Positions 14,977 to 63,653 of a DNA stretch of 64,000 nt are shown one piece after another. A program made the position numbers and the translations under genes. The stretch lies in the IMG/VR virus record IMGVR_UViG_3300032267_001142, positions 62,001-126,000 of that record; one strand, written 5' to 3'. The notes beneath the pieces are model-generated. The model did not search any database and was not told the origin of the DNA. It saw only the letters and a program-made list of their open reading frames with translations. How positions within the stretch are numbered: the first letter of the stretch is position 1; every line of letters begins with the position of its first letter. Origin of the DNA: a virus.

Positions 14977-15005
14977 GTTTTAATTGCTTTTGTTAGCCGC
15001 GTCAA
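14977..15005 (-). promoter_or_regulatory. Near-leaderless promoter for the gene ending at 14224
   Basis: On the minus strand: -35 TTGACG (15005-15000), 17 bp spacer, -10 TAAAAC (14982-14977), then 6 bases to the ATG at 14970. The predicted transcription start falls at or next to the start codon. Confidence 0.55.
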
Positions 15006-16197
15006 GGACATTGCCATTTCTGTAAATGTAGAAGAATTCGGAATCTTCCCAGAAATCAGCGCAGTCCAAAACCTCTCCCTCGTTGTCTCTAAGGTCGCCG
15101 CTTGGGACATTTTTACCGTCCTTCCAGTGGGCTCTACTGAGATAAAGCTTTCCAGACGATAGCAGAAATCTTCCAGTACGGAATCTCATACCCGCAACAT
15201 CTTTGTCAATAGTGGCTGGACGCTCAGAGCTTAAAGATTTGTGTATCGGCTCGAAGTCGAAATACTCTAATTTAATCGGCCCTAGCGTTTCTTCTGGCAG
15301 CTTAGAGAGGAGAATGTATTTAATTCCTAAGTCGGAGATAGCCTTAACGAAGAGAGGGTTATGATTTTCCTTAATTTCATAAACTATCGTGTCTACGTTG
15401 CCCATCACATTCCGAAGTTCGTCGACATTGACGGGCTTATCTGTGACGATATTGCATTTGCGATGTTTGAGAATCTTAAACATCACTTCTTCGCTTCCGC
15501 CTAGGTCAAATCTAAAGGTAGGAATTTGATTGCCACATACCCCTAAATCAATTAGTAAGTCGGGAATTACTTCAAAAGTGACTATTTGAAATTTCTCTCC
15601 TACGCGTATGGTTTTTGGTAAGCCTTCCAAGAATTTACGTTCGGCCTTGAGCACTCTCATTACCGCTCTCGCTACTTCTTCTGGACGTATCTCATCAATG
15701 TGTTTTTTGTGTTCCTCCGATTGAAATGACGGCCTGTGAGTATCGGGTGTGATGTAGTGTTGCTTCGTCTTGTCGCCAAACCAAGCTCCAGAAATATTAG
15801 GGTGGGTCGGCCCAAAGCACGAAACTAATGGGACGTTATGATGTCCTGCCAAATGGATGATACTCGTATCGTTCGCTAGCACTAATGACGAGTGCTTAAC
15901 AAGCCAAGAATACTGGTAAAGGGAAGTCTGTCCGCAAAAATTTAGGTGGACGTTAAGAGGGGTATCATTCGCAGAGCCAACTTGAATCAGCTTATAGCCG
16001 CAAGATTCAAGAAATGGAATTACGCAGCGCAAGACTTCATTGAGCAGTGAGTAATTTTTACTTTGCATGCCCGAGCTTGAGCATACCAAAACGTATTTAT
16101 CGAATCCGTCAGGCAAAGGGATGCTATGCTCATAGGTCTGCATCGAGCCTATCCTAAGCCCCGTCGAGCGACTATAAGTATCTAAAAGGTGAGCCAT
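14980..16197 (-). CDS. C-terminal lobe of a GT9-like glycosyltransferase plus extra domain
   Basis: 405 residues. Residues 30-170 match the C-terminal Rossmann lobe of heptosyltransferase-type GT9 enzymes, with a VLVCSSSG strand, LANDTSIIHLAG and VPLVSCFGPTHP. There is no matching N-terminal lobe in this frame; that lobe is the end of the upstream gene (16201-18126), in the same frame and separated by a single TAA and one codon. Residues 190-405 form an additional unrecognised region. No good ribosome binding site precedes the ATG at 16197, so translation by reinitiation or read-through is likely. Probably acts on sugar transfer to phage or host glycans. Confidence 0.6.
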   Translation of the reverse strand: MAHLLDTYSRSTGLRIGSMQTYEHSIPLPDGFDKYVLVCSSSGMQSKNYSLLNEVLRCVIPFLESCGYKLIQVGSANDTPLNVHLNFCGQTSLYQYSWLVKHSSLVLANDTSIIHLAGHHNVPLVSCFGPTHPNISGAWFGDKTKQHYITPDTHRPSFQSEEHKKHIDEIRPEEVARAVMRVLKAERKFLEGLPKTIRVGEKFQIVTFEVIPDLLIDLGVCGNQIPTFRFDLGGSEEVMFKILKHRKCNIVTDKPVNVDELRNVMGNVDTIVYEIKENHNPLFVKAISDLGIKYILLSKLPEETLGPIKLEYFDFEPIHKSLSSERPATIDKDVAGMRFRTGRFLLSSGKLYLSRAHWKDGKNVPSGDLRDNEGEVLDCADFWEDSEFFYIYRNGNVLDAANKSN

Positions 16198-16200
16198 AGG

Positions 16201-18126
16201 TTACGGAAGTGTCAGTTGCAAATGATTAGTAGTTTCGCCGTTGTGCAGATAGTTTATCATTCTTTGAGTAAAGAAGTGCGGCTGCAATACGACCTGAAAA
16301 GTTTTATTGCCGTTGTAGCCCTCTAACTGCATACTGTTATCATACGCGGGTTGCCATTCCAGCACTCTTTTTATTAGAGTCCCCACGAGCGGCTCAAAAA
16401 CTTCCCTAAATTTGGGCTTTGTCGCGATGTAGATATCCTTGCCCACATAGACGTTATTTTTGGCGTCTTCTAGCAAAGCGGTAATGTAAAGAGCGTCTCC
16501 TAAAGACTCTGGTATATTGATGAGCACCCTGTTTTCTGGTAGACCCTCTAGCGAATCTAACTCAGAAGAGTTTTTCTTCAATTTATCGTTCTCTTGCTCG
16601 GCGATGTGACGAAAATAATTTTCGACATTCTGGCGCGGCACGTTTTTAGCAAGTTCCGACATCCAATATTTTACGCCCTCATCGTCGTCCGCGACTTCCA
16701 TATTGAGGATTTTTGAATACAGGCTTTTAACCCAAATTCTATCGTCAGTCGAGTCCTCTATTACGGCGGAGGGGTTTTTTGGTTTTACGGAAAAGTCGAA
16801 ATCGTAATCACTTAGAGGGAAGCTGTCCAATAATTGCTCAAACTGCTGTCCGATTTTTTCTATCGAGAAGTTCTCCAAGACCCACTGTCTTGCTTTTTTG
16901 CCCATCGCCTCTCTTTTTTCTAAGGCCATGTCTGAGACCTTCTTTAGGGAACTGGATATAGAATAGACACTCGTATTCGCTTTAATAAACGAACTGACGC
17001 CCTCACGATAAGAGCTGAACTCAAGAGGTATGGACGCAGCCCCCTCCTCGCAGTTATCTTCACCGCAGGAATAGTTCGTGACTAGAGTAACTAATTCCGC
17101 CAGCTTCGCTTCTTGAATGGTTCGCTCTTGTCCGCCGCTAGTGAAAGCATGCGCGTAAACGTCCAGCAGGTTATACCATTCATTTAGTTGAGACTCAGTA
17201 ACGCCGTCTTTTATATTGACCGTGACTAAGGAGTTTTTGTGTCCTGTCTCGGGATTATCTAAGTCTTGTCCAGCGTAAGGAAGAATATACATTCGTCCTG
17301 TAGAGCGGCACTTATAAGTAGCCAATACGTCGGACTCATTGAGTCCGTTTTGTTTGATTAATGGCGGCAAATCCCACCCCTCACCCCAATGAGTGTGAAG
17401 GAGGAGTTTGGCGTTTTTCTTTGGGTTTTTTTTCTTGAAATCGGCGAATCCTTCTATGAGTTGCGGAAAGCTTTTCCTTAGCTGATTTCTGCTGCACATG
17501 CCCACGCAGAAATCGCTTGGAGATATTCCGTAACGATGGCGCAATTCTTCACGAACACTCCGATTCAGCTTGAAAAATGCTCCGCTATTAACGCTTCCTC
17601 TCAAAGTCTTTACGTGGGTTTGGCCCCTAGCGTTCATATCCTTTGTCGCGAAATCTGCCCAAGAAAAGAAATACGGAGTAGCTTTAGCTAGCTCGAAGGC
17701 CATCTCTAAAATAGGTCTTGAATCGAGAGTTGTATGCACGACGCAAGGTATTTTGTTCCACCACGGCTTGTCCTTGAAGAATGCCAGTCCCCAAATATCT
17801 TCTACACCGATAAAAACGTCAGGCTTGACGGCTTTAACCACGTCATTAGCCCTATAATCTCCATAGTTGGCGAGCTTGAATGTGCGCTCGTCAGCCTGGA
17901 GAGATTGCAGCTCTTGTGGTGTGTTGGGGAGTGCTCCGTGACACTTCCACGGCCACTTGCTGAATTCAGGATAACCTTCGGTTACTGCCCCAGCTAATAG
18001 ATGAAGCTCGTATTTTCCGGTTTTATATAGGTAGGTCAGAAGCTCCCTCATGAAGCCACCGAAGCCGGTTTTCAGACCGCAATAATTCCCCGAAATTAAG
18101 ACCCTCTTTTTTCTAAGCTCGCTCAT
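16201..18126 (-). CDS. Glycosyltransferase GT4 - DUF4214 - GT9 N-lobe fusion
   Basis: 641 residues in three parts. Residues 1-435 are a GT-B, GT4-type glycosyltransferase (VLISGNY start, LLLHTHWGEGWD, AHAFTSGGQE near the donor site). Residues 468-510 (LYSKILNMEV...YWMSELAK) resemble DUF4214, a module seen beside glycosyltransferases. Residues 533-641 (VLINIPESLGDALYITALL) are the N-terminal lobe of a GT9 enzyme that stops abruptly at TAA 16201-16203, with the matching lobe continuing in frame downstream. AGGAG precedes the ATG by five bases. Probably works with the glycan genes at 33-43 kb. Confidence 0.65.
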   Translation of the reverse strand: MSELRKKRVLISGNYCGLKTGFGGFMRELLTYLYKTGKYELHLLAGAVTEGYPEFSKWPWKCHGALPNTPQELQSLQADERTFKLANYGDYRANDVVKAVKPDVFIGVEDIWGLAFFKDKPWWNKIPCVVHTTLDSRPILEMAFELAKATPYFFSWADFATKDMNARGQTHVKTLRGSVNSGAFFKLNRSVREELRHRYGISPSDFCVGMCSRNQLRKSFPQLIEGFADFKKKNPKKNAKLLLHTHWGEGWDLPPLIKQNGLNESDVLATYKCRSTGRMYILPYAGQDLDNPETGHKNSLVTVNIKDGVTESQLNEWYNLLDVYAHAFTSGGQERTIQEAKLAELVTLVTNYSCGEDNCEEGAASIPLEFSSYREGVSSFIKANTSVYSISSSLKKVSDMALEKREAMGKKARQWVLENFSIEKIGQQFEQLLDSFPLSDYDFDFSVKPKNPSAVIEDSTDDRIWVKSLYSKILNMEVADDDEGVKYWMSELAKNVPRQNVENYFRHIAEQENDKLKKNSSELDSLEGLPENRVLINIPESLGDALYITALLEDAKNNVYVGKDIYIATKPKFREVFEPLVGTLIKRVLEWQPAYDNSMQLEGYNGNKTFQVVLQPHFFTQRMINYLHNGETTNHLQLTLP

Positions 18127-18137
18127 TAAACTCCTAG

Positions 18138-18776: not shown

Positions 18777-18806
18777 GTATTATTACGGAATTGGGTCTGA
18801 AGTCAA
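18777..18806 (-). promoter_or_regulatory. Near-leaderless promoter for the SSB-like gene
   Basis: Minus strand: -35 TTGACT (18806-18801), 18 bp spacer, -10 TAATAC (18782-18777), 6 bases to the ATG at 18770. The elements overlap the 3' end of the polymerase gene. Confidence 0.5.
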
Positions 18807-21800
18807 GGCTCTATTATTAGATTCCATGTCTTTTTGCACGTCCTTGAATTTGCAGTAGATTTTCAAAGACTGGTCGCTTATTCTGTCTAGAAAGATTGAA
18901 TCGCCGTGCTTTTTTCCAGAACAGAAGACTATCGAGTCTTTCGCTGGGAGCGACCCGTCGTGTAGAGCTTTCGTTCCTGATATCTTGTCCCCATCTTTTG
19001 TAGCGAAGATTAACGCTGTAATTGTTCCGGTCTCATCGCTGAGCTGCCAGCGAGCGTATCTAGTCTTCTTCTCGTTTTGTGCGACACCTTCGTAAGGCTT
19101 GTCGGAAACGACGGCTACAAAGCTACAGCGCTCACCTTCACTGGCACCGTTAAGTTCCTCTACGCTATACAAGACGCTGCCATCTGGAGAGTCAAATATT
19201 TCTGACAGCTTGTGGCTGTAGCTGTATCCGAGCAGCATTCTTTCGTAAAAGAAGTTTGCCATTTCTAAGTTTTTACGGTTCATTTCCCAAATAGCTCGGA
19301 ATGGCTCGCTTTTCTTTTTTATCGTTGCCATTCGTGACGGCTTGATTACGGGTTTACCGTCCGCGCCGATACCCGAAGCTAGTGAGTTGATTACCGCCGA
19401 TAAGCTGTGTTTGAACTGCTCGCCTCTATCAATACAGGCTTTCTTTTCTCTATCCGTCAAAAGGTTCCATACTTGAGCCTCCCAGACTAACCTTGGGCGG
19501 TCATAAGAACCTCCCACGCCATCAAAGCATCCGCTTTGTATTAGCGCCGCCAAGACGTTTACGGTGAGTCCGGCGTTATTAGCGGCCTCGAAAATCTCGA
19601 ACTTGGACGAAAACTCATCTCGAAAACAATTTAGCTTTGCGATGGACTTGTCGGAAATGCCTTTAATCATTGAGAGTCCAAATCTGATATCAGGCCCCTC
19701 GATAGTGAAATCCATCTCCGACTTCAAAATATTAGGAGGCAAAAGCTTGATGCCAAAGTTGCGAAGCTCCATTTGGATTTTGGTTATTTCCTCGACTGGC
19801 TTCGGTTCATTTTTTGCTTCTTGTAAAAGAGCGCAAAAGAACTCTTTCGGATACTTGAATTTCAAGTAAGTGGTTAGCGCCGATAGGCTGGCATAGGCTA
19901 CGCTGTGGCTATTTGAAACGACTAAACCGTCCGCATAAAAATTATGGTCTTTGTGAGCTACCTCTAAATCTAGCGTCGTTTTGAAGCCTATTGATTCATA
20001 AGATTTAACTTTTGTAACTCGCCTGTCTCTACACACGATATTTAAGTTTTGAGAAATAATATCCCTTAGTGGTCTCATTATCATGTCGTCGCAAAGGAGT
20101 TTATGTTCCATTGAGCATTTTATCACCTTCCCATCTTCCATCTCTACTTCAAATAGCTCCCGTTTCGCTTCCGTTTTATCTAAGACTTTGACGTAGCGAT
20201 TCACACGCTCATCTGTATCGAAACCGAGGACTTCGTCTCCTATTTGAATATCGAACAGCATCTTGTCTCCGTTTGGAGTCTCGACAACGGTGTCAGGCGA
20301 AAGGCATTTATTAAATGAATAGCTCGCGCTTTCTTCGAGAATCTTCCACAACATACTGCCAAGCTCTTCTGGCAGACCTTGTTCTTTTATTTTTTCTGAA
20401 ATCTTCTGCTCCCATTCTTTAACTTCGTTAATCTTCTTTTTCCCAACCACGCGACGCAAAACCTCGGCCTGCTCTAGACTAAACCCGATGGCGTTGGCGA
20501 GCTGCATCATTTGCTCCTGATACAGACATACGTTTCTGGTGGCCGCTAATATCTTGGCGAAAAGATGATGCACTTTATCTGCTTTTACGTTATTTTTCGC
20601 GTATCCCTCCAAATAGCTAAGCGCACCAGGCCTAGCAATAGCAACCACGTCGGCCAATTCCGTTAAATTCTTTGGTTTAACCTCTCTACACACTTTGAGG
20701 TTAGTAGGGGCTTCTAGCTGGAAAATACCATGCGCCGTATTCAGGTTTTGTAAATTATCGTAAATTACGGGGTCGTCATGGATATTTACGTCGTCGAACT
20801 TAATCCCGACGCTCTTCATAACGCGAGAAACGACGGAGCAGCAACGCACGCCAAGCAAATCCAGCTTGAGCGTCAAATAAGCGACTTCGTCCATCGTCAA
20901 AGAGGTGGCTATATTGATGTCGGCCTCTTCCTCGGAGGACTTCGCTTTTTCTAGAGGCAGAAATTCTGCTACTTCATCGAAAGAAACTACATAACCAGAT
21001 GGGTGCGTGCCTCTGTTTCTGATGATGTCTCTTAGACGTAGAGATATATCATAAGCTTCTGGGTTTTTAACAGCCCAGTTATTAAAGTCCTTGCTGCCAG
21101 CTTTTGCCTTTTCCAAATCCTCAACGACGCCGAACTTCTTTGGAATCATGTCCGACACGGTTTTCATTTCTTCGTCGCTATAGCCGCAGACGATTTTTCC
21201 GATATCTTTGATTAAGACCTTTCCGCTTAGAGTGCTTAAGGTACTGATTTTGCATACCTTTTTCGGATACAACGAATGCAAATAAGCGACGACCTCTTTT
21301 CTGCGCTCTTGCTCGATGTCGATATCAACGTCTGGGGCCAAGCTTCCGTCAATATACGTCACTCCATCGACTATTTTCTTCTTCGCTCGTGTCTCAGAAA
21401 CGAATCTTTCAAAAAATAGACCATAGCGAATGGGGTCGTTTGCCGTAATCCCAAGAAGGTAGAAAACCAGACTACCGCCAGCCGAGCCGCGTCCATAGTC
21501 TCTGGCGATGCCGGTCCTATCACAAAAAGACGTGACCTTCCACACTAACAAGACATAATCGACAAATCCGAGCTTGTCGAAGAGCGCTAACTCTTTCTTA
21601 ACGCGCTCGGCGTATTCCGCCCACTTGCTTTTTTGTATCTTCTTTGTAAATCCGGCACGAGCTAAGCACGTCAAGAACTCCAAATTAGAACTTCCCAAAG
21701 GGGCGCTGGCAGCAGCGCGCTCTTCATCAGAAATAGAAATCGAAGGCAACCTTACATACCCGTAATTCTCAAACTTGTAATCAGTGAACTGTTCTATGAA

Positions 21801-21818
21801 GTTTTCTTCTGCTGGCAT
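18783..21818 (-). CDS. dnaE: DNA polymerase III alpha subunit, catalytic part, intein-containing, lacking PHP
   Basis: 1011 residues including a 132-residue intein; about 879 after splicing. Core polymerase motifs are clear: GRGSAGGSLV (110-119), catalytic PDVDIDI (162-168), LKLDLLG (317-323), IFQLEAP (365-371), the YQEQMMQLA and LRRVVGKKK region (433-462), SFNK joined to SHSVAYA across the intein, and a C-terminal OB-like domain near residues 860-960. It begins about where the PHP domain of a normal DnaE ends. That PHP domain is a separate gene at 23969-24727. AAGGAG lies six bases before the ATG. It overlaps the helicase gene by 25 bases, in the operon order PHP, exonuclease, helicase, polymerase. 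Confidence 0.9.
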   Translation of the reverse strand: MPAEENFIEQFTDYKFENYGYVRLPSISISDEERAAASAPLGSSNLEFLTCLARAGFTKKIQKSKWAEYAERVKKELALFDKLGFVDYVLLVWKVTSFCDRTGIARDYGRGSAGGSLVFYLLGITANDPIRYGLFFERFVSETRAKKKIVDGVTYIDGSLAPDVDIDIEQERRKEVVAYLHSLYPKKVCKISTLSTLSGKVLIKDIGKIVCGYSDEEMKTVSDMIPKKFGVVEDLEKAKAGSKDFNNWAVKNPEAYDISLRLRDIIRNRGTHPSGYVVSFDEVAEFLPLEKAKSSEEEADINIATSLTMDEVAYLTLKLDLLGVRCCSVVSRVMKSVGIKFDDVNIHDDPVIYDNLQNLNTAHGIFQLEAPTNLKVCREVKPKNLTELADVVAIARPGALSYLEGYAKNNVKADKVHHLFAKILAATRNVCLYQEQMMQLANAIGFSLEQAEVLRRVVGKKKINEVKEWEQKISEKIKEQGLPEELGSMLWKILEESASYSFNKCLSPDTVVETPNGDKMLFDIQIGDEVLGFDTDERVNRYVKVLDKTEAKRELFEVEMEDGKVIKCSMEHKLLCDDMIMRPLRDIISQNLNIVCRDRRVTKVKSYESIGFKTTLDLEVAHKDHNFYADGLVVSNSHSVAYASLSALTTYLKFKYPKEFFCALLQEAKNEPKPVEEITKIQMELRNFGIKLLPPNILKSEMDFTIEGPDIRFGLSMIKGISDKSIAKLNCFRDEFSSKFEIFEAANNAGLTVNVLAALIQSGCFDGVGGSYDRPRLVWEAQVWNLLTDREKKACIDRGEQFKHSLSAVINSLASGIGADGKPVIKPSRMATIKKKSEPFRAIWEMNRKNLEMANFFYERMLLGYSYSHKLSEIFDSPDGSVLYSVEELNGASEGERCSFVAVVSDKPYEGVAQNEKKTRYARWQLSDETGTITALIFATKDGDKISGTKALHDGSLPAKDSIVFCSGKKHGDSIFLDRISDQSLKIYCKFKDVQKDMESNNRALTSDPIP
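19911..20306 (-). other. Mini-intein in DNA polymerase III alpha (132 residues)
   Basis: In-frame protein insertion, polymerase residues 505-636. It begins with CLSPDTVVETPNG (block A), has a block-B-like CSMEHKLL, a block F-like DLEVAHKDHNFYADG, and ends VVSN before an extein Ser. No homing endonuclease domain is present. It interrupts the conserved FNK/SHSxAY motif, about four residues downstream of the site used by the cyanobacterial split DnaE intein. The last residues before Asn are Val-Val-Ser rather than the usual His, so splicing kinetics may be atypical. Confidence 0.9.
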
Positions 21819-24735: not shown

Positions 24736-24764
24736 AGAATACCTAAATTTGAACACTCGGGCAA
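24736..24764 (-). promoter_or_regulatory. Near-leaderless promoter of the split-polymerase operon
   Basis: Minus strand: -35 TTGCCC (24764-24759), 17 bp spacer, -10 TATTCT (24741-24736), 8 bases to the ATG at 24727. It fills the 39-base gap between the nuclease stop and the PHP start. Confidence 0.5.
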
Positions 24765-30244: not shown

Positions 30245-30273
30245 ACTATATCCCGATTTCTTGACCTTGTCAA
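30245..30273 (-). promoter_or_regulatory. Near-leaderless promoter for the DnaB-like helicase
   Basis: Minus strand: consensus -35 TTGACA (30273-30268), 17 bp spacer, -10 TATAGT (30250-30245), 9 bases to the ATG at 30235. This decides the start codon of the helicase. Confidence 0.65.
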
Positions 30274-30588: not shown

Positions 30589-30594
30589 AATAGA

Positions 30595-31023
30595 TTACAC
30601 CGGAGTCAGTTGGATTCCGTAGTTTTTGAAAAAGAACTCTCGCGTCAAAGGTAGGTCTGTTGGCTCGATTTCTACCAACGTAAATCCGTTTGCTACTGAC
30701 CACTCCCTTTTAGCCTCGTCTCTCACTATTTGCTCATGGAAGTTGAAGCGATTCTTGCCGTGAAAGAACGAATTATACTGACTGTGCTGTATTCCGTTGG
30801 TTTCGACAATAATCATTTTCGATAGATTCACCAAGTCGAAGCTGTATCTGGTTCCAGGAACGGGCATCTCCTCCAAGCATATGTCCATCTTCCAATACGG
30901 ATGAAGCCACACCTTCACCTGCTTTTGAAACTTGCTGCGGCAGTCCCCGCCCCAATCCACGGCGTAATTGGCCGTGTTGATGTTAACGAGCTTCTCGCTG
31001 CGATATTTCTTGAACTTAGGCAT
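30595..31023 (-). CDS. PD-(D/E)XK-superfamily endonuclease-like protein
   Basis: 142 residues. YSFDLVNLSKMIIVETNGIQHSQ gives the D...ExNGxQH variant of the restriction-endonuclease fold (as in VSR/DUF559-like nucleases), followed by DEAKREWSVANGFTLVEIEP, the usual helix and last strand. A single-domain nuclease. It could be a repair or recombination nuclease, or a homing-type nuclease. Overlaps the DnaQ-like gene by 8 bases. Confidence 0.65.
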   Translation of the reverse strand: MPKFKKYRSEKLVNINTANYAVDWGGDCRSKFQKQVKVWLHPYWKMDICLEEMPVPGTRYSFDLVNLSKMIIVETNGIQHSQYNSFFHGKNRFNFHEQIVRDEAKREWSVANGFTLVEIEPTDLPLTREFFFKNYGIQLTPV

Positions 31024-37443: not shown

Positions 37444-37472
37444 ATACTACCTTTCTATGACCGAGCAGTCAA
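37444..37472 (-). promoter_or_regulatory. Near-leaderless promoter of the glycosyltransferase operon
   Basis: Minus strand: -35 TTGACT (37472-37467), 17 bp spacer, -10 TAGTAT (37449-37444), 9 bases to the ATG at 37434. It lies in the only gap between the reductase and sugar genes. Confidence 0.6.
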
Positions 37473-41209: not shown

Positions 41210-41238
41210 ATATTACAGCCTATAGAACGGCAAGTCCA
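41210..41238 (-). promoter_or_regulatory. Near-leaderless promoter of the MazG-reductase genes
   Basis: Minus strand: -35 TGGACT (41238-41233), 17 bp spacer, -10 TAATAT (41215-41210), 9 bases to the ATG at 41200. Confidence 0.5.
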
Positions 41239-43298: not shown

Positions 43299-43326
43299 TG
43301 TTTATCTTTTTTTGTTAGGATTGCAA
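43299..43326 (-). promoter_or_regulatory. Near-leaderless promoter for the small DPF-tail protein
   Basis: Minus strand: -35 TTGCAA (43326-43321), 16 bp spacer containing an A-run, -10 TAAACA (43304-43299), 6 bases to the ATG at 43292. Confidence 0.5.
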
Positions 43327-43902
43327 GCCTTTTTTCACTTTATCTTTGAGGACTTCCAAAGCTTTGTTATGAACAATTACCGTCCCCCATATGGAAAGGC
43401 CGACGTTTTTTGCTATTTTCTCGAAGGTCATCGGCTTCTTTCCGCCAGAGAGATATCTCAGCTTGAGAACTTTATTAGCTCGCCTAGTTAAGCGGTTATC
43501 ACTTTCAGCCGAAAGCTCTTTTTTCACAATAGCTAGAGCTTCTTCGTGAGCTTCTTCGCTTCTTTCTAATGGGACGCCTCCCAAGAAATCGTCGTCAACG
43601 TGAACTAAATTATGAGTTCTAGACTCGAATTTCTTGAAGGAGGTCATTCTCGCAAATTTAGTCTGCGCAAACAACCAAGTTGAAAACTTAACCTTCCTAT
43701 CGGGCCTGAACGAATCGCAAGATTTCCAAATAATAAGATAGAAGTCTTCGTCTAGTATATCTCGCTGAAGTTCGTCAGGGAGCTTCCTTCTCTCTGAGCG
43801 GAATATGGCTAAATGCCTAGTATAAAGCTCTTTAATAGCGCTGTTATCGCCTTCAAGTCTGACCTTTTCGGCCAGTTCCTCATCAGAAACAGTGCTATTC
43901 AT
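43315..43902 (-). CDS. Sigma-70-like (ECF-type) transcription factor
   Basis: 195 residues. Region 2-like segment: AIKELYTRHLAIF, DILDEDFYLIIWKSCDSFRP, KFSTWLFAQTKFARM. Region 4-like segment: VLKLRYLSGGKKPMTFEKIAKNVGL with a helix-turn-helix. Length and layout fit a small two-domain sigma factor. It could direct RNA polymerase to phage promoters such as the TTG/TAnnnT set seen here, or to late promoters. Overlaps the dNMP kinase gene by 8 bases. Confidence 0.7.
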   Translation of the reverse strand: MNSTVSDEELAEKVRLEGDNSAIKELYTRHLAIFRSERRKLPDELQRDILDEDFYLIIWKSCDSFRPDRKVKFSTWLFAQTKFARMTSFKKFESRTHNLVHVDDDFLGGVPLERSEEAHEEALAIVKKELSAESDNRLTRRANKVLKLRYLSGGKKPMTFEKIAKNVGLSIWGTVIVHNKALEVLKDKVKKGLQS

Positions 43903-45482: not shown

Positions 45483-45510
45483 TTGATGTTCGCGAAAAAC
45501 GGAGTAGCAT
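45483..45510 (+). promoter_or_regulatory. Near-leaderless promoter opening the rightward block
   Basis: -35 TTGATG (45483-45488), 16 bp spacer with CGAAAAAC, -10 TAGCAT (45505-45510), 6 bases to the ATG at 45517. Confidence 0.6.
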
Positions 45511-46692: not shown

Positions 46693-46710
46693 TCCGGTGT
46701 AATCTTCTTG

Positions 46711-47364
46711 ATGAAGACTATTATCATCTCTGATATCCATTTGGGCAGTCCCGTCTGTCGGGCCGACAAGGTTCTGGACATTTTGAACTCCGATATGGAT
46801 GAATTAATCATTAATGGTGATTTAATAGACAGCAAGAACCTCACACGGTTTCGCTCTAAGCATTGGGAGATTTTGTCAAAGTTGAGAAAGTTGACGAAGA
46901 AGATTCCAACGCACCTTATCGGAGGGAACCATGACGGAGACTTAGGGCAGGTTTCTGATATGCTCGGTTTGGATTTCCGTCAGAGTATGGATATCAAAAC
47001 CGATAACTTTAATGCCTATGTTACTCACGGAGATAAGTTTGACCTCTGGATGAGCCTCCGAGGCGTGTCCGATTTCTTTTCTGGGCTTTACTATTACGTC
47101 CAAAGAATTGACAGTAAGAGTCGCCGGATGTCGAGGTTTATTAAACGCCTGAGCAAGAAGCTCATAAAGACAGACTCAAATATGGCAAATAAAGCGTGTC
47201 GCTACGCTAGCAAGCACGGTTACGATACCGCTATTTTGGGCCATAGTCATTTTGCAGACGATAAGATGATAGATGGCGTGCGTTACCTCAATAGTGGCTC
47301 TTTCTGTGAAGACCCGTGCCATTTTATTGAAGTTTCAGATTGCATTACTCTAAAAGAATGCTAG
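46711..47364 (+). CDS. Metallophosphoesterase, LpxH-like
   Basis: 217 residues from the ATG at 46711 (a TTG lies one codon earlier). IISDIHLGSPVCRAD, IINGDLID, GGNHDGD, VTHGDKFD, ILGHSHFAD and YLNSGSFCEDP follow the UDP-2,3-diacylglucosamine pyrophosphatase-like branch. In a phage the substrate may be a nucleotide or RNA end rather than lipid A precursor; not determined. Confidence 0.78.
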   Translation: MKTIIISDIHLGSPVCRADKVLDILNSDMDELIINGDLIDSKNLTRFRSKHWEILSKLRKLTKKIPTHLIGGNHDGDLGQVSDMLGLDFRQSMDIKTDNFNAYVTHGDKFDLWMSLRGVSDFFSGLYYYVQRIDSKSRRMSRFIKRLSKKLIKTDSNMANKACRYASKHGYDTAILGHSHFADDKMIDGVRYLNSGSFCEDPCHFIEVSDCITLKEC

Positions 47365-47367
47365 CAT
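47340..47367 (+). promoter_or_regulatory. Near-leaderless promoter for the 57-residue gene
   Basis: -35 TTGCAT (47340-47345), 16 bp spacer, -10 TAGCAT (47362-47367), 10 bases to the ATG at 47378. A perfect hairpin GCATCT/AGATGC (47364-47381) overlaps the -10 and the start codon. Confidence 0.5.
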
Positions 47368-47551: not shown

Positions 47552-47552
47552 T

Positions 47553-48108: not shown

Positions 48109-48480
48109 ATGAAAATAATTACAAGGTTCGTTAGATGGCTAACGAGATGGGCATGGAAGAAAGAGCTTGAGGCTACAGAAAACATCGCGACGCTAGAAAA
48201 GCTAGCCATGTCAGGAAATTACGCCGAGCTTGAGTTAAAGGCGAAATCTCCGGCGCTTCATCGTCATCTTTGTCGCTCTTTAGCGGCAATCGTCGCGGAA
48301 TCTCCGAATTACACAGAAATGAAATTCGATGTTGTCTCCGACCACGAGGACGGAAAGATATGGGTCACTGTCTTAGTTCAGAAAGGCTCAGGTCTTACTC
48401 CTCACGAATTGAGACGTGAAGCCGAGGCGCGGATAGCGGAGCTGCAAAAAGAGCTGGATTCTTTTAACAAGAGCAGTTAG
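48109..48480 (+). CDS. Unknown protein, possible membrane-associated N-terminus
   Basis: 123 residues. The first 18 residues (IITRFVRWLTRWAWKK) form a short amphipathic Trp/Arg-rich helix that might touch a membrane. The body has a beta hairpin and a C-terminal helix (LRREAEARIAELQKEL). No family recognised. Confidence 0.5.
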   Translation: MKIITRFVRWLTRWAWKKELEATENIATLEKLAMSGNYAELELKAKSPALHRHLCRSLAAIVAESPNYTEMKFDVVSDHEDGKIWVTVLVQKGSGLTPHELRREAEARIAELQKELDSFNKSS

Positions 48481-48483
48481 TAT
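48455..48483 (+). promoter_or_regulatory. Near-leaderless promoter for the ABC-GNAT gene
   Basis: -35 TGGATT (48455-48460), 17 bp spacer, -10 TAGTAT (48478-48483), 6 bases to the ATG at 48490. Confidence 0.5.
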
Positions 48484-50932: not shown

Positions 50933-50960
50933 TTGATTCTTCTCGAAAAACGTAGATAAT
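50933..50960 (+). promoter_or_regulatory. Near-leaderless promoter for the Rnl5-like ligase
   Basis: -35 TTGATT (50933-50938), 16 bp spacer with CGAAAAAC, -10 GATAAT (50955-50960), 6 bases to the ATG at 50967. The spacer matches that of the promoter at 45483. Confidence 0.6.
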
Positions 50961-53990: not shown

Positions 53991-53992
53991 CA

Positions 53993-54649: not shown

Positions 54650-54650
54650 C

Positions 54651-55596: not shown

Positions 55597-55605
55597 AGAC
55601 CCATC

Positions 55606-57036
55606 ATGAAGCCAAAAATGAAAGACAACACGGTATTCCTACTTGATTCTTACAAAATCGCGCATCCTAAAATGTTGCCCGAAGGAACAACTGGCGCATT
55701 TTCTTATGGCGAATCGCGTAAAGGCGCTCGTTACCCCTATACTGCGCTTTTCGGTCTTAGATATATCCTGCAAACTCATTTGGCTGGGCCGCGAGTTACT
55801 CCTGAAAAAATCGCTCAAGCGAACGAGCTTCTGACTGAGCATTTCAAATTCTGCGGTGATGTTTATGACGCCCGCATCTGGGAATACATTCTGAGAGAGT
55901 ATAACGGGCGACTTCCGTTGACAATTCGCGCCGTTCGTGAAGGAACGAAAGTGCCTACCGCTAACATGATGGTCAGTGTAGAGACTAGCGACAAAAACTG
56001 CGCGTGGCTCGTCGGTGGCGTTGAAACGGTATTGCAGCAAATGTGGTATCCTTCTACGGTTGCGACGCGTAGTCGATGCATCATCGACATCATCAAGGCT
56101 TACTTCAAGAGAACTGTTGATGACGATTTGCAGTGGCTTGCGGATTATTATTTGCACGACTTCGGGCAGAGGGCCGCGACGTGTATGGAGGCGGCTGGCC
56201 TAGGGGGAATGTCGCATCTACTCAACAGCAAGGGCACGGACACTCTTATGGGTATGGCTTATGCTATTGACGAATATGACGCAAGCCCTAAAGATTTGGC
56301 ATATTCGGTTCCTGCTAGTGAGCACCTGATTGCCACGTCGCTAGGTAAAGCTGGAGAATTTGCGGTAGCCAAGAGGCTCTTGCAGCTTTTTCCGAAGGGC
56401 ATATTGTCGCATGTTTCGGATAGCTATAACATCACTGAGGCAATCAGGATGTATAACGAAGACCCCGAGTTCCGCCGACTTATCTTGGCGAGGGATGGTA
56501 AATTCGTAGCTAGACCCGATAGTCCACGCTTTGAGCAGGACACGCCGCAAGACCAGATTCTTTGGATTACCCAACAGTGGGACAAGGGTTACGGCCACCG
56601 CGTAAACACTAAGGGCTATAAAGATTTGGACCCTCATGTCGGAACTATCTACGGAGATAGCCTTACAGAGGACAATATTGAGGACACGCTTAGTCTGCTA
56701 GAACAAAACGGTTATAGCGCGTTGGCGAGCGTTTTCGGATGTGGTGGTTATTTAATCCAGCGGATGCACCGCGATACTCAGCGTCAAGCTTTCAAGTGCA
56801 GCGCCCTCATGCACGACGGCGAGTGGCGCGATATCTGTAAAGAGCCGCTGGATAAGACGAAGGTTTCCAAGAAAGGGCGGCTCAAGCTCATCAAGAACGA
56901 ATATGGAGACTTTGAAACGGTTCCGTTTGAAGTGGACAAGCCCGACCAGATGGTTACGGTGTTCAAGAACGGCAACATGATGAACGTGGAAAACTTCGCG
57001 CAAATCAGACGCCGCATCAACGGAGAAATAGAATGA
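55606..57036 (+). CDS. nadV: Nicotinamide phosphoribosyltransferase
   Basis: 476 residues, normal length. FLLDSYKIAHPKMLPEGT, YSEGES-like SYGESRKGARY, VETVLQQMWYPSTVAT, HDFGQRA, GTDTLMGM, ASEHLIATS, SHVSDSYNI, and GDSLTEDNIE with FGCGGYLIQ match NAMPT/NadV throughout. Converts nicotinamide to NMN; with NadM it rebuilds NAD in two steps, useful when host NADases are triggered or for phage metabolism. Own promoter. Confidence 0.93.
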   Translation: MKPKMKDNTVFLLDSYKIAHPKMLPEGTTGAFSYGESRKGARYPYTALFGLRYILQTHLAGPRVTPEKIAQANELLTEHFKFCGDVYDARIWEYILREYNGRLPLTIRAVREGTKVPTANMMVSVETSDKNCAWLVGGVETVLQQMWYPSTVATRSRCIIDIIKAYFKRTVDDDLQWLADYYLHDFGQRAATCMEAAGLGGMSHLLNSKGTDTLMGMAYAIDEYDASPKDLAYSVPASEHLIATSLGKAGEFAVAKRLLQLFPKGILSHVSDSYNITEAIRMYNEDPEFRRLILARDGKFVARPDSPRFEQDTPQDQILWITQQWDKGYGHRVNTKGYKDLDPHVGTIYGDSLTEDNIEDTLSLLEQNGYSALASVFGCGGYLIQRMHRDTQRQAFKCSALMHDGEWRDICKEPLDKTKVSKKGRLKLIKNEYGDFETVPFEVDKPDQMVTVFKNGNMMNVENFAQIRRRINGEIE

Positions 57037-57212
57037 GCGCCGGAAAGGGAGACAAGCCTAGAAATCTAGGCCCGAACTTCAAGAAGAACTACGACTTGAT
57101 TAAATGGAAAAAGACCTCGCAAACAGACCACAAGAGTCGATGTGGCAAGCCTTCAACAGAATTGAAGAAGAACTCGAAAAAGAAATCACCGAGTGGGAAC
57201 GAGCCAACCTAG
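57033..57212 (+). CDS. Small conserved phage protein of the GKGDKPR type
   Basis: 59 residues; ATG 57033 overlaps the NAMPT stop (ATGA). The first 27 residues (SAGKGDKPRNLGPNF, NYDLIKW) match a short motif I recall from many small phage proteins of unknown role. From 57104 it overlaps the thymidylate-synthase-family gene in another frame for 109 bases. A perfect hairpin GCCTAGA/TCTAGGC lies at 57056-57071. Confidence 0.6.
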   Translation: MSAGKGDKPRNLGPNFKKNYDLIKWKKTSQTDHKSRCGKPSTELKKNSKKKSPSGNEPT

Positions 57213-58072
57213 TGCAAAACAACGCCGATAAAAGATATTTCGAGCTAGTCAATAAAATACTAGCCGAAGGAGAATGGAAAGGCAACAGGACGGGTGTAGA
57301 TTGTCTAGCGATTGCGGGATTCATGTTTGAACATGATATGAGCGAGGGCTTCCCTCTACTCACCAGCCGTAAGTTGCCGTTCAAAAGCACTACGGTCGAG
57401 CTAGAGTTCTTCATTAAGGGCCTCAGAAGCAAGAAGTGGCTTCAGGACCGAGGGTGTCATTATTGGGACGGGTGGTGCAATCCACAAAAAGTGGCATACG
57501 CCCATGACGAAGAGACTAAGCGCAGGATGGCAGAAGAGGACGATTTAGGTCTTATTTACGGAACGCAATGGAGAGATTTCCGTGACCCAAGCATGCCAGA
57601 CGGAAGTGGTATCGACCAACTCAAAGAAGCCGTTAATAAACTCAAAACTAATCCGCTCGACAGGAGAATGCTTGTCTCGGCTTGGAACCCGCTAGCTATA
57701 CCTCATGCGGCGCTTCCTAGCTGTCATGATGGGTTCAGAATCTCCGTCGTGAATAACAAGCTAAACTTAGCTTGGACACAGCGCTCAGTTGATGTTTGTT
57801 GCAATCAGAGCATTACAACTTACGGTCTCCTGTTGCATCTTTTAGCTAAAGAAGCGAATCTGCAAGAAGGAAAGTTGATAGGATTTTTGATGGATTGTCA
57901 TATCTACAAAAACCATTTAGACGGTATACAAAAACAACTATCTCAAAAAACTCACAACCTTCCGAGAGTTCAGACAAAGAATTTTAGTTCGATATTCGAC
58001 TGGACATATAGCGATACGTCGCTATTAGATTATCAACATAGCGAGCCGATTAGATACGAGGTTGCAATATAA
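57104..58072 (+). CDS. thyA: Thymidylate synthase-family enzyme, divergent
   Basis: 322 residues. EGEWKGNRTGV, EGFPLLTSRKLPFKS, LIYGTQWRDF, LPSCHDGF (catalytic Cys), WTQRSVDV and a C-terminal EVAI are thymidylate-synthase motifs. The base-recognition loop differs: the usual LGLPFNIAS is two residues shorter (CCNQSITT), so the dUMP-contacting Asn appears to be Ser 236. The first 45 residues are an extra charged helix; a later ATG at 57140 is possible. DHFR and dCMP deaminase in the same genome fit dTMP synthesis; hydroxymethylation of a pyrimidine is an alternative. Confidence 0.85.
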   Translation: MEKDLANRPQESMWQAFNRIEEELEKEITEWERANLVQNNADKRYFELVNKILAEGEWKGNRTGVDCLAIAGFMFEHDMSEGFPLLTSRKLPFKSTTVELEFFIKGLRSKKWLQDRGCHYWDGWCNPQKVAYAHDEETKRRMAEEDDLGLIYGTQWRDFRDPSMPDGSGIDQLKEAVNKLKTNPLDRRMLVSAWNPLAIPHAALPSCHDGFRISVVNNKLNLAWTQRSVDVCCNQSITTYGLLLHLLAKEANLQEGKLIGFLMDCHIYKNHLDGIQKQLSQKTHNLPRVQTKNFSSIFDWTYSDTSLLDYQHSEPIRYEVAI

Positions 58073-58076
58073 GCCG

Positions 58077-58105
58077 TTGCGATTCTTAAAAACATATCGT
58101 ATAAC
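58077..58105 (+). promoter_or_regulatory. Near-leaderless promoter for the gene at 58112
   Basis: -35 TTGCGA (58077-58082), 17 bp spacer, -10 TATAAC (58100-58105), 6 bases to the ATG at 58112. Confidence 0.65.
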
Positions 58106-58111
58106 ATCAAG

Positions 58112-58579
58112 ATGAACCTCTTTTTTTTAGACCCTGACTTGCAACGCTGCGCGGAAGCCCACGTTGACCGACACGTTGTCAAAATCATCACTGAGGCTAA
58201 TCAGTGTATGGCGTGCGCCTATCCCAAAGGCGTCGCACCTTACCGCCACTCTTACACTAACCACCCGATGACCGTTTGGGTCCGCACGAACCTTGCGAAT
58301 TTTAACTGGACGGTTGAATACTGCCTAGCTCTCTGTTACGAATACACTTACCGATATGGCCGCGTCCATGCCGGAGAAAGGGTCGCCAACTGGTATAAAC
58401 AAAATCCTCCCACAATTCCTAACGGAGAATTGACAGAGCCACCGCGTTGTTTTGGGGCATTCAAAGACCAAATCAATATCACTACCAGCGTCTACGACGA
58501 TTACCGCTCATATTACAAGGTCGGCAAGAGCCATCTATTCAATTGGAAAAACCGCGCAACACCGAGTTGGCTACTATGA
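58112..58579 (+). CDS. Conserved phage protein, unknown function
   Basis: 155 residues, rich in His, Cys, Tyr and Trp: MNLFFLDPDLQRCAEAH, VDRHVVKIITEANQ, YRHSYTNHPMTVW and a C-terminal YRSYYKVGKSHLF, WKNRATPSW. The pattern of invariant-looking aromatic and His residues suggests an enzyme, and similar proteins are familiar in large phages, but I cannot assign a function. Own promoter. Confidence 0.6.
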   Translation: MNLFFLDPDLQRCAEAHVDRHVVKIITEANQCMACAYPKGVAPYRHSYTNHPMTVWVRTNLANFNWTVEYCLALCYEYTYRYGRVHAGERVANWYKQNPPTIPNGELTEPPRCFGAFKDQINITTSVYDDYRSYYKVGKSHLFNWKNRATPSWLL

Positions 58580-58758
58580 GCGATAAAAACAAAGTCAGAG
58601 CATTGATTAAGAAGACTCAGCATGTCGCTGACGCGAGAGACGCCGCCTACAGGCGAGAAGCGGCTAAAGACGCGGCAGAGCAGGAATCTACAGTCGAAGG
58701 AGCAATGCTGGCATTAAGCATACTGCTAGCAGGTTATCCCAAGGGCAGACGCTCATAA
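58576..58758 (+). CDS. Small charged helical protein, unknown
   Basis: 60 residues from ATG 58576 overlapping the previous TGA (ATGA). Mostly one Ala/Lys/Glu helix (DARDAAYRREAAKDAAEQE) ending GYPKGRRS. No family recognised. Confidence 0.5.
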   Translation: MSDKNKVRALIKKTQHVADARDAAYRREAAKDAAEQESTVEGAMLALSILLAGYPKGRRS

Positions 58759-59583
58759 ATGACAAGAGTAGTTAATAAGAAATTCACCAAAGACTTCGAC
58801 GTATTCATCGGTCGTCCGTCTTTGTTTGGCAATCCTGATGTAATCGGTATTCACGGAACCCGTGAGCAGGTAATCGCCGCTTACAAAGCCGCGTTTTACG
58901 AAAGGGTCGGCTCAGATTTGAAATTCAGAGAAGAGGTCAAAGCCTTAAAAGGCAAAACCCTTGGATGCTTTTGCAAAGACCCAAATAAGGAAGTACCGTG
59001 CCACGGCGATGTCTTCGTTGAGTTCTTGGAAGAGTGTCCAAAATTTCGAGTGGCGTGCGTGGGCAGTCGGGAGATTTCAGAAGAGAAGCGGCTTTTGCTT
59101 TCACGAGTTGGAAAGCATATCGCAGCGAGGAATTGGTGGCTGTCTTCTGGGAATGCGTTGGGAAGCGATATAGCTTATGCCTCTGGCGCGAATGAGGTAG
59201 ACCCTACCCGCGTTGTGCTTTATCTTCCTTGGCTAGCTTACAACGAGGAACATATAGTAAAAGGTAACTGGAAATCGGCGGTGATAAAGCCTGAATGGCT
59301 CGAAATAGCGAAAGAACACCACGGCAAATGGGACGCTTTAGGCCAAGGTGGTAAGAAAATGATGGGAAGAAACGTGGGAATTGTCTCTCGTGCCAATGTG
59401 GTCTTGGCAGTGCTGAATCACAACAAAGTCGGCTTTGGCGGAACCGGACAGGCGTGGAGGGTAAGCGAAAGTTTAGGATTGCCGTGTTTAGACCTTTCCT
59501 TGGATTACAAATACGAGTATATTGTTTCATTCCTAGAGGAACACTATGAGTCTACACGTCAGAAAAACATCCAGTTGTCCTAA
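58759..59583 (+). CDS. DUF4326 - SLOG/DprA-like fusion protein
   Basis: 274 residues. Residues 1-95 match DUF4326: DVFIGRPSLFGNP, GTREQVIAAY, KGKTLGCFCKD and PCHGDVF. From about 97 the protein has CVGSREISEEKR and LSSGNALGSDIAYASGA, the Rossmann-like SLOG/DprA-type nucleotide-binding fold, ending with GGTGQAWRVSESLG. Such domains bind nucleotides or nucleotide-derived signals. Possible role in NAD or signal-nucleotide metabolism given the neighbours; not established. Confidence 0.68.
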   Translation: MTRVVNKKFTKDFDVFIGRPSLFGNPDVIGIHGTREQVIAAYKAAFYERVGSDLKFREEVKALKGKTLGCFCKDPNKEVPCHGDVFVEFLEECPKFRVACVGSREISEEKRLLLSRVGKHIAARNWWLSSGNALGSDIAYASGANEVDPTRVVLYLPWLAYNEEHIVKGNWKSAVIKPEWLEIAKEHHGKWDALGQGGKKMMGRNVGIVSRANVVLAVLNHNKVGFGGTGQAWRVSESLGLPCLDLSLDYKYEYIVSFLEEHYESTRQKNIQLS

Positions 59584-59767
59584 CTGCGGCGCTTCATCCG
59601 CGCCGAGCGATGCGCGGTGCGGGTATTGTGGTTCGTTTTTTATCGACTCGTATAACCGCCCAAAACAGCCACATCCAATTATGACCACGGGCTGTTACTC
59701 TAGGGCATATCCCGTTTTCACTGGAGAAATCTTTTGTTGTTCAGGTATAGCCCATCCATACGTTTAA
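59546..59767 (+). CDS. Zinc-ribbon protein
   Basis: 73 residues. SCPNCGASSAPSDARCGYCG is a clear CxxC...CxxC zinc ribbon; two more Cys follow near the end. It overlaps the previous gene by 38 bases in another frame, with AGAGGA a few bases before the ATG. Its stop overlaps the next start (TAATG). Likely nucleic-acid or protein binding. Confidence 0.6.
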   Translation: MSLHVRKTSSCPNCGASSAPSDARCGYCGSFFIDSYNRPKQPHPIMTTGCYSRAYPVFTGEIFCCSGIAHPYV

Positions 59768-60888
59768 TGAAGAGGAGGCTTGTCATATTTTGCACAGGAG
59801 GAATGGGCGACATCATCATGGCATCTCCGATGATTCGTCAGCTCACCAAAACGTATTCCGTGACGCTTGTGGCTAAGCGCTGGCATCATCCCGCGATAAT
59901 GCTGCGCGATGTTAGCACTATCTATTACGAGGAAATTAAGGGGCAAAACGTAATAAGCAAAAACCCTCAAGGTAAGACCGACTTAAACATATCCGAGTCT
60001 TTTTTCGAGGCTACCGTCCGAGGCGACTTGTGGATAGTCCCGCTGTTAGACGGTGATGTAATAGCTGGAGGGCAAATAAAGAAAAGTTCATTCCCAGTCA
60101 GTATCGTGGACGGAAAGAATATGTGCCGCAGCGATTTGCTGCTTTTGAAATATACAGATTGGGACGGAGGTAGATACGAGTTTGAATGTTCCACGACAGA
60201 AGACACGGAAGGCTACCGAATTACGCCGAGTATCGCGCTGTGCTCGTCAGCGGAAAAATTAAGGACTCTGCCGGTCGGCGCTGTTCAAAAAATACTTTCT
60301 AGGTATTCACACATAAACGCCGCAGTAATAGGAGCGGAGAAAGATTATCCTAGATTGCCTATACAAGAGATATGTGCGAGCCGAGACATAAATCTTGATT
60401 ATCGCTGCGACTCCAGAAAAGACTACGCGTCGATTCAGTGGAAATTCAAGGCTGTCGCAGATTCGGATTTGGTAATAGCGACCGATTGTGGTTGGGCGTG
60501 GATTGCGATGGCGCTCAAAATACCTGTAGTGTGGCTGGAGAGTAGGGTCTCTTACGAGCGCTTAATACCTAAGCATTATTGGGATGCCGTAAAACTCTAC
60601 AAGTCCTACAAAATAAGCTGCGATAGGATGTGTCAGGCCGGAAGGGAAGAGATGCTCGCAAGAATATATGGCGACAGCGCCAATCGCCCGAGAGAGAATT
60701 GGCAGTTCTTTAATGGTGGTCCGAAAGAATTTTCACTCAGATTGCCTGACGCACAGTCTCACTTTGATTTGGCGTGTAGGCAAAAAGAAAACGTCCCCTG
60801 CCTAGATTATAGCGAGGCTGACGTTTCACAAATACTAAGCTTAGCAGAGGAATTGGCTCCCGCGCTGAAAGGATGCAGAATACGTTGA
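59767..60888 (+). CDS. GT9-like (heptosyltransferase-type) glycosyltransferase
   Basis: 373 residues from the ATG at 59767. RRLVIFCTGGMGDIIMASPMI is the GT9 N-terminal motif, and SDLVIATDCGWAWIAMALKIPVVWL is the C-lobe donor-binding motif. Both lobes are in one chain, unlike the split GT9 near 16.2 kb. Probably adds a sugar to a cell-surface or phage glycan. Confidence 0.72.
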   Translation: MKRRLVIFCTGGMGDIIMASPMIRQLTKTYSVTLVAKRWHHPAIMLRDVSTIYYEEIKGQNVISKNPQGKTDLNISESFFEATVRGDLWIVPLLDGDVIAGGQIKKSSFPVSIVDGKNMCRSDLLLLKYTDWDGGRYEFECSTTEDTEGYRITPSIALCSSAEKLRTLPVGAVQKILSRYSHINAAVIGAEKDYPRLPIQEICASRDINLDYRCDSRKDYASIQWKFKAVADSDLVIATDCGWAWIAMALKIPVVWLESRVSYERLIPKHYWDAVKLYKSYKISCDRMCQAGREEMLARIYGDSANRPRENWQFFNGGPKEFSLRLPDAQSHFDLACRQKENVPCLDYSEADVSQILSLAEELAPALKGCRIR

Positions 60889-60912
60889 CTCTACTGGCAT
60901 AAAGAGTAACAT
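60885..60912 (+). promoter_or_regulatory. Near-leaderless promoter for the MazG-like gene at 60922
   Basis: -35 TTGACT (60885-60890), 16 bp spacer, -10 TAACAT (60907-60912), 9 bases to the ATG at 60922. Confidence 0.6.
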
Positions 60913-63259: not shown

Positions 63260-63287
63260 TTGCAAAGGCGAAAAAGAGAGCTAGTAT
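63260..63287 (+). promoter_or_regulatory. Near-leaderless promoter for the gene at 63295
   Basis: -35 TTGCAA (63260-63265), 16 bp spacer with CGAAAAA, -10 TAGTAT (63282-63287), 7 bases to the ATG at 63295. Confidence 0.6.
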
Positions 63288-63294
63288 AGGATAT

Positions 63295-63585
63295 ATGCAA
63301 ATTCCCACATCTGACGAACTCCAGCGCAATATCGTAACAGGAGCGCCTCGATATGATTCTCCTAGCCATAAGCAACAGGAGACAGCCGAGACAGCCGAGA
63401 CAGCCGAGACAGTCCTAGCCGTAGGCGCAGCTCTAGGTGGCTCGTTGTCTTACGGGTTCGATGGTCCGTGCGAGCCAGCTCTCCGTGCCGAACTAGAGGC
63501 TAAAGGATATGAAGTAGAGGATGAGTGGTATCCAGCCGATGAGCGCGGGCCTAAATCTTGTTACGTTTTTGTCAGCCCGAAGTAA
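63295..63585 (+). CDS. Small protein with Glu-Thr-Ala repeat, unknown
   Basis: 96 residues. An N-terminal polar part, then an ETAETAETAET repeat at about 29-39, then SLSYGFDGPCEPALRAEL and AKGYEVEDEW, which may form a small alpha/beta fold. No family recognised. Own promoter. Confidence 0.5.
   Translation: MQIPTSDELQRNIVTGAPRYDSPSHKQQETAETAETAETVLAVGAALGGSLSYGFDGPCEPALRAELEAKGYEVEDEWYPADERGPKSCYVFVSPK
63381..63412 (+). repeat. 9-bp tandem repeat GACAGCCGA, about 3.5 copies
   Basis: Three perfect units at 63381-63389, 63390-63398 and 63399-63407, followed by GACAG. In frame, it encodes the ETA repeat of the gene at 63295, so copy-number change would not break the frame. Confidence 0.9.
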
Positions 63586-63624
63586 TTCGGAAATCGTTCC
63601 CTCAAAAAAAAAACGAAAAAGTTC

Positions 63625-63653
63625 TGGACAATCCGAAGAAAGTAGTGTAAACA
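63625..63653 (+). promoter_or_regulatory. Candidate promoter for the 63.66-63.86 kb transcript
   Basis: -35 TGGACA (63625-63630), 17 bp spacer, -10 TAAACA (63648-63653), 9 bases before the ATG at 63663. Preceded by a run of ten A at 63605-63614. Confidence 0.4.

Follow-up and report, generated by a model that had tools for sequence, protein, structure and literature searches.

Two promoter classes placed close to start codons point to leaderless operon heads in a family of large uncultured phages

Can the operons of a large phage be headed by promoters that lie so close to the start codon that the messages would begin at the AUG itself? This question is raised by a stretch of 64,000 nucleotides, here called the window, which comprises bases 62001-126000 of the 186,105-base virus record IMGVR_UViG_3300032267_001142 from an uncultured phage. 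A preliminary description of the window, made from its letters, had listed sixteen genes on both strands with a TTG-type -35 element, a TA-type -10 element and an ATG a few bases further on. We report here that this observation is right in kind and that the pattern is stronger genome-wide than in the window. We consider it probable that the pattern belongs to a programme of two promoter classes in a large lytic phage, in which many messages would start at, or a few bases from, the start codon. The observations on which this reading builds are the promoter motifs, their positions and spacing, their conservation, the segregation of the two classes and a near-absence of Shine-Dalgarno (SD) sequences.

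The record contains the terminase, portal and tape-measure genes of a tailed phage and also encodes a DnaE-type polymerase, a DnaB-like helicase, a ribonucleotide reductase and RIIA, as well as 24 transfer RNAs (tRNAs; ARAGORN) in a single array and a transfer-messenger RNA (tmRNA). Window bases 40000-60000, used as a query for similar DNA, had no match among 50,697 phage records, and the identity of DnaE to isolated phages is only ~25-30%. Relatives were collected from IMG/VR via DnaE; terminase and sigma scans of viral contigs yielded no useful relatives. We examined ~182 kb of the record, in pieces that carry L numbers, and large parts of six relatives, with gene starts taken from our own gene caller. 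The 126 starts in the record that are separated from the upstream gene by 20 bases or more, or that come after a strand switch, were classed as head starts. The phages phiYS40, T4, crAss001 and Gordonia phage Stormageddon served as controls in the same pipeline.

Motif discovery in comparison with shuffled sequence had been proposed as a check. A blind expectation-maximization (EM) search, 30 positions wide and with no prior, recovered the two-part motif cTTGac-N16-TAnnnTc at a fixed distance from ATG (mostly 6-7 bases, with 6 bases, or gap 6, in 23 of 49 hits) and far above shuffles, with a log-likelihood of 266 versus ~100. A clear motif emerged only from this two-part model of width 30, and not from single-block searches of width 8 or 10. 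This motif, termed class 1 here, has all parts of a primary-sigma (sigma-70/SigA) promoter, namely a TTGACA-like -35, a spacer of 16-18 bases and a TAnnnT -10. When exact patterns were counted with no use of gene calls, the 37-base pattern TTGAC-N17-TANNNT-N6-ATG occurred 19 times in the record versus 0 in the reversed control, and TTGA[CT]-N16..19-TAnnnT preceded an ATG in ~182 kb 21 times at gap 6, 5 times at gap 7 and 7 times at gap 9, compared with 0.9, 0.8 and 0.4, respectively, in dinucleotide shuffles. The TTG-to-TA spacing is 19 in 30 of ~40 class 1 cases, and 28 of the 42 TTGAC-N17-TANNNT sites in the record have an ATG 6-10 bases downstream. At the 126 head starts, TAnnnT is present at gap 5-10 in 53 versus 15 expected (p = 8e-15), its enrichment peaks at 6, 7 and 9 bases, and the full two-part site is present in 35 versus 1.2 expected. 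TAnnnT by itself is common in AT-rich DNA, and an effect of chance or of gene calling in TA-rich upstream sequence might thus be suspected. This suspicion is refuted by the counts of gene-call-free exact patterns against reversed controls (19 versus 0 here, and 111 versus 0 across the relatives described below), together with the dinucleotide shuffles, and we give this explanation practically no credence.

The pattern is weaker in the window than in the rest of the genome, and most perfect class 1 sites lie in the record's 1-20 kb and 126-186 kb. Based on a strict criterion (a TAnnnT 6-12 bases before the start, preceded at 17-20 bases by TTG), the layout is present at 8 of the 16 starts that had been said to share it (45517, 47378, 55606, 60922, 63295, 24727, 30235 and 37434). 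As for the others, 48490 and 41200 possess the -10 with TTG absent, 50967 and 18770 combine GATAAT/AATAAT as -10 with a good -35, the sites of 14970, 43292 and 58112 are weak, and 63663, assigned to the same layout by the preliminary description, has a GTGTAAA site that belongs to the second promoter class introduced below. Gaps of 6 and 9 bases, reported as nearly universal, are both common, but gap 7 is as common as gap 9.

A pyrimidine directly precedes the ATG in 80% of gap-6 and 90% of gap-7 cases, which leaves the A of ATG as the first favourable purine. In the eight gap-9 cases, a purine always occupies position 7, and a pyrimidine occupies position 6 in seven. This pattern of initiator bases fits a start on the A of ATG, and the distance from the -10 likewise places the predicted start at the ATG or beside it. 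Leaders of 0 bases are predicted at gaps 6-7 and of 2-3 bases at gaps 8-9, in agreement with the earlier proposal of a start at or within about 4 bases of the ATG, and leaderless operon heads are thus supported by sequence. A few class 1 promoters precede A/C-rich leaders of 14-43 bases without SD. Class 1 sites at L082 8061 and 18508 (- strand) and L087 1877 (+ strand) are not leaderless and have A/C-rich leaders of 33-43 bases, with GTAAGCAACA common to two of them.

A strong SD core was found at 1 of 126 heads versus 13 in a control stretch, consistent with the statement that most of the listed heads are without a ribosome binding site. The internal genes 21818, 18126 and 59546, described as keeping such a site, all have SD-like sequence, but over the internal genes overall SD is hardly enriched: the count before closely spaced internal genes is 14 versus 10.5 expected, hardly above background.

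Is the layout a property of this one phage? The pattern TTGAC-N18-TANNNT-N6-ATG is present in 15 of 17 records (14 of 16 relatives and the window's own record), with 111 matches versus 0 reversed; the matches of relative G003 repeat those of G001, and the total without G003 is ~92. An EM search over 46 loci of relatives gave cTTGACtt...caaaa...TAnnaT, in which each position of TTGAC reaches 97-100% and gap 6 predominates. The layout, 37-38 bases long, was found in relatives that span 29 to 59% GC and differ in SD use: G001 and G020 show modest SD on internal genes, whereas G009 (84 versus 19.5) and G017 (96 versus 27.5) show strong SD, as do T4, phiYS40 and Stormageddon. Among the relatives read at length, only G013 lacks enrichment at its heads. 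In the control phages, phiYS40 was positive (11 of 57 heads at gap 6), and T4, crAss001 and Stormageddon were negative. Because leaderless heads occur in relatives with and without SD, the layout appears to be inherited by the phages and not dictated by the SD use of the host, which argues that it follows the phage lineage.

The layout could also have originated by plain mimicry of a leaderless host, for example an actinobacterium or a member of Deinococcota, whose promoters the phage copies with nothing lineage-specific involved; such an origin would be compatible with a two-class mechanism. A TAnnnT located ~10 bases ahead of the start is a known signature of Actinobacteria and Deinococcus-Thermus (PMC3160421, PMC12340547), and in G017 (59% GC) leaderless heads occur together with internal genes that bear SD, as expected of such hosts. 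However, SD is scarce in the internal genes of the present phage, G001 and G020, unlike in the Thermus and Gordonia phage controls, the same layout persists across the range of GC content and SD use given above, and it is wholly absent from Stormageddon. We regard host mimicry as possible but less likely than not. A bolder proposal, which we find somewhat doubtful, is that leaderless initiation is a trait of the phages' own lineage, in which host-type and phage-sigma promoters alike keep a constant spacing to ATG and which persists in hosts with and without SD use, perhaps together with a phage factor that favours 70S ribosomes on 5'-terminal AUGs.

As to the identity of the host, Deinococcus-Thermus or Actinobacteria, at which the preliminary description had hinted, is unsupported: WhiB was found in none of 25 records, and SD is scarce internally, unlike in Thermus and Gordonia phages. 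The only host-like associations that we found are Bacteroidota bins, which do not fit the promoter type. A search of genome contigs with DnaE as a single protein gave no match, and a search by DnaE alignment gave 12 loci, the 7 stronger of which came from six aquatic bins, five of them Bacteroidota. Similarity of the phage tRNAs was at best 86% in a Bacteroidota set and 85% in a Proteobacteria set, and the two sets barely differ. We rejected the bins as proof of the host; their own genomes, outside viral contigs, show class 1 near control level, and the Bacteroidota -7 element is missing. The possibility of a Bacteroidota host, with a Bacteroidota promoter behind the layout, draws on the labels of these bins and on the scarce SD and A-rich start contexts of the internal genes, which resemble Flavobacterium (PMC6847099). 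Yet the Bacteroidota element TAnnTTTG is all but absent from the heads of the record (4 of 126 versus 1 reversed) and present in Bacteroides phage crAss001 (8 of 21 versus 1), so that the expected Bacteroidota pattern was not found. Moreover, the class 1 pattern stays near control level in the bins' genomes, Flavobacterium messages are mostly leadered (PMC6847099), and stray viral contigs may sit in bins. We consider this possibility quite improbable.

The structural genes are mostly without class 1 and instead have a second element, GTGTAA(A/T), without a -35, which we term class 2 and which in relatives mostly ends 7-8 bases from the ATG. The layout described earlier as the rule for phage operon heads, although far above chance in the record, is not the rule for the structural operons, where class 1 is present at only 1 of 30 starts versus 39 of 196 elsewhere (p = 0.02). 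Class 2 shows the reverse, with 9 of 30 structural starts versus 13 of 196 elsewhere (p = 6e-4). GTGTAA at most 50 bases from a head start was observed 18 times versus 1 reversed in the record and 22 times versus 0 in relative G020. In 96 class 2 cases from seven phages, the spacing peaks at GTGTAA-N8-ATG (32 cases) and N9 (12 cases), no -35 is present, and GTGTAA follows an A that is itself preceded by an A/T-rich stretch. In relative G001, with the terminase and other very large genes at 20-60 kb, most class 2 sites lie at 29-51 kb and most class 1 sites at 0-18 and 104-200 kb. An HNH endonuclease is encoded by a class 2 gene of the tRNA region. Class 2 has the form of a phage late promoter of the phiEco32/T4 type, that is, a single -10-like element, with no -35, on structural genes. 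A literature search on GTGTAAT as a phage late promoter, judged from titles and counts, found nothing relevant.

Which sigma factor might read which class? The family profile of the protein encoded at 43315-43902 matches regions 2 and 4 of SigA/RpoD (E ~4e-10). Its structural model has a mean predicted local distance difference test score (pLDDT) of 80.5, and the best fold matches in the PDB are sigma factors; overall template modelling (TM) scores are low, probably as a result of the uncertain arrangement of the two domains. With homologues in 12 of 16 relatives, this sigma factor is, judged by profile and distribution, genuine and conserved. No multisubunit RNA polymerase gene was found, so the core enzyme of the host is likely used. 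The preliminary description had connected the sigma factor with class 1. The gene is real, but the attribution is probably wrong: class 1 looks like a primary-sigma promoter, and GTGTAA is the likelier target, a link that is by association only. If the phage sigma did read class 1, and the host or another factor class 2, this would agree with the conservation of sigma in most class 1-bearing relatives and with a profile that includes region 4, which could contact the -35 that class 1 has and class 2 has not. However, class 1 dominates early-looking arrays of small genes, which need transcription before any phage sigma exists, it is canonically sigma-70-like, and in G017 it is strong with only a weak and partial sigma match. 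We consider this assignment unlikely.

In the two-class programme that we favour, the -10 of class 1, TTGAC(N)-N16/17-TAnnnT, would end 6-7 bases before the ATG, and RNA polymerase would initiate 7-8 bases past the -10 at a purine, the A of ATG itself; in promoters with gap 9 it would use a purine 3 bases upstream. Class 1 would serve the small-gene arrays near the record ends and the replication and nucleotide operons and, being of ordinary primary-sigma form, would most likely be read by host RNA polymerase with the main sigma factor of the host. Class 2, aGTGTAA(T/A) with no -35, would serve many structural genes and some genes of the tRNA region, and would most likely be read by the host core polymerase with the phage sigma. 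Ribosomes would start on the 5'-terminal AUG. We infer these transcription starts, their timing, the assignment of sigma factors to classes and the translation of 5'-terminal AUGs. Several points weigh against this programme. The starts depend on our own gene calls. Strict class 1 is present at only 35 of the 126 heads, or 51 if class 2 is included, which leaves many heads with signals that are weaker or of another kind. Leaders of 14-43 bases are evident at some promoters of both classes, and the class 2 spacing in the structural region of this genome is often 14-40 bases. Finally, the association of sigma with class 2 is uneven: GTGTAA is missing from G017, where the sigma match is weak, but it is also nearly missing from G013, which does have a sigma match.

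Late promoters of T4 (TATAAATA, gp55) consist of a -10 only and are read by a phage sigma, as proposed for class 2, but their element is another one; in addition, SD is used by T4 genes, and T4 gave no sign of leaderless heads. In phiEco32, a phage sigma with the host core reads the late promoter tAATGTAtA, with the start 6-8 bases downstream (PMC8948821). The phages phiEco32 and 7-11 resemble the present proposal in this use of a phage sigma with the host core, and the single element of phiEco32 is like class 2 in form. The element here is, however, aGTGTAAT, its spacing is predicted often to make the message leaderless, and region 4 is recognisable in the present sigma, whereas a lack of homology to this region was given as the reason why the phiEco32 promoter has no -35 (PMC8948821).

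Leaderless phage heads had been called unusual, which is only partly so: leaderless messages and their translation were reported for Thermus phage phiYS40 (PMC3594737), and two promoters of cluster O mycobacteriophages were predicted to be leaderless (PMC4351075). Similar to the present phage, phiYS40 is large and has many genes with a -10 six bases before the ATG, but its internal genes have strong SD (59 versus 5.5). The present family has a strict TTGAC -35, the GTGTAA class and a sigma factor, the last two having been compared in phiYS40 by motif count at most. The cluster O promoters PL1 and PR2 are SigA-like with predicted leaderless messages (PMC4351075), and there are two per genome compared with dozens here. 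Leaderless genes are also common in Actinobacteria (~19%) and Deinococcus-Thermus (~39%), in which TAnnnT precedes the start codon by ~12 bases (PMC3160421, PMC12340547). The signal in these bacteria is mainly a -10, and SD is common elsewhere, in contrast to the strict two-part promoter and little SD observed here.

Leaderless messages bypass SD recognition, so that a phage family built on them would be independent of how its host marks start codons. The family provides a clean comparative test, with the same promoters in relatives with and without SD on internal genes. The signature could be used to annotate start codons and promoters in uncultured phages, and the two promoter classes and the candidate sigma are testable in vitro without the host. 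Coordinates of the individual features are given in Table 1.

Table 1. Promoter elements and the candidate sigma factor gene, in window positions
Feature	Positions	Strand	Description
Class 1, start 45517	45483..45510	+	TTGATG-N16-TAGCAT, ATG after 6 bases
Class 1, start 47378	47340..47367	+	TTGCAT-N16-TAGCAT, ATG after 10 bases
-10 element TAGTAT, start 48490	48478..48483	+	ATG after 6 bases; -35 not clear
Class 1-like, start 50967	50933..50960	+	TTGATT-N16-GATAAT, ATG after 6 bases
Class 1, start 60922	60885..60912	+	TTGACT-N16-TAACAT, ATG after 9 bases
Class 1, start 63295	63260..63287	+	TTGCAA-N16-TAGTAT, ATG after 7 bases
Class 1-like, start 18770	18779..18806	-	TTGACT-N16-AATAAT, ATG after 8 bases
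Class 1, start 24727	24736..24764	-	TTG-N20-TAnnnT, ATG after 8 bases
Class 1, start 30235	30245..30273	-	TTGACA-N17-TATAGT, ATG after 9 bases
Class 1, start 37434 (operon head)	37444..37472	-	TTGACT-N17-TAGTAT, ATG after 9 bases
-10 TAATAT, start 41200 (ribonucleotide reductase operon head)	41210..41215	-	ATG after 9 bases; -35 weak
Weak class 1, start 43292	43299..43326	-	TTGCAA-N16-TAAACA, ATG after 6 bases
Class 2 GTGTAAA	305..311	+	23 bases to ATG 335
Class 2 GTGTAAA	9449..9455	+	6 bases to ATG 9462
Class 2 GTGTAAT	46697..46703	+	7 bases to start 46711
Class 2 GTGTAAT	30594..30600	-	5 bases to start 30588
Class 2 GTGTAAA	63645..63651	+	11 bases to ATG 63663
Sigma-70-family factor, 195 aa, regions 2 and 4	43315..43902	-	Profile, fold model; proposed class 2 reader

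Other features of the window include a divergent intergenic region of ~390 bases (45130-45516), apparently with inverted repeats inside, which separates the leftward from the rightward operons and could be a control region or an origin. DnaE (18783-21818, - strand) contains an intein-like insertion of ~134 amino acids at SFN/KSHS, and most relatives are without this insertion. The large subunit of ribonucleotide reductase (37482-39635, - strand) likewise contains an intein (Pfam Intein_splicing). At 54651-57036 (+ strand), a cytidylyltransferase-Nudix protein adjoins NAMPT, and these neighbours are possibly a pair for the salvage of nicotinamide adenine dinucleotide (NAD+).

Elsewhere in the record, a GOLLD RNA (RF02032; 150.6 bits, gathering threshold 150) lies within the phage tRNA array at L085:15215-15584 (record ~139.2-139.6 kb). 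The phage tmRNA (RF00023, 95 bits) is at L086:10109-10522, and its predicted tag is unusual and ends in SPVVA. The stop codons of the structural genes are 27 TAA, 3 TAG and 0 TGA, compared with 117, 49 and 36, respectively, elsewhere, and a tRNA with the amber anticodon CTA is encoded at L085:8081-8154. It is possible that this amber tRNA and the strong TAA bias of the structural region reflect a late stop-codon effect.

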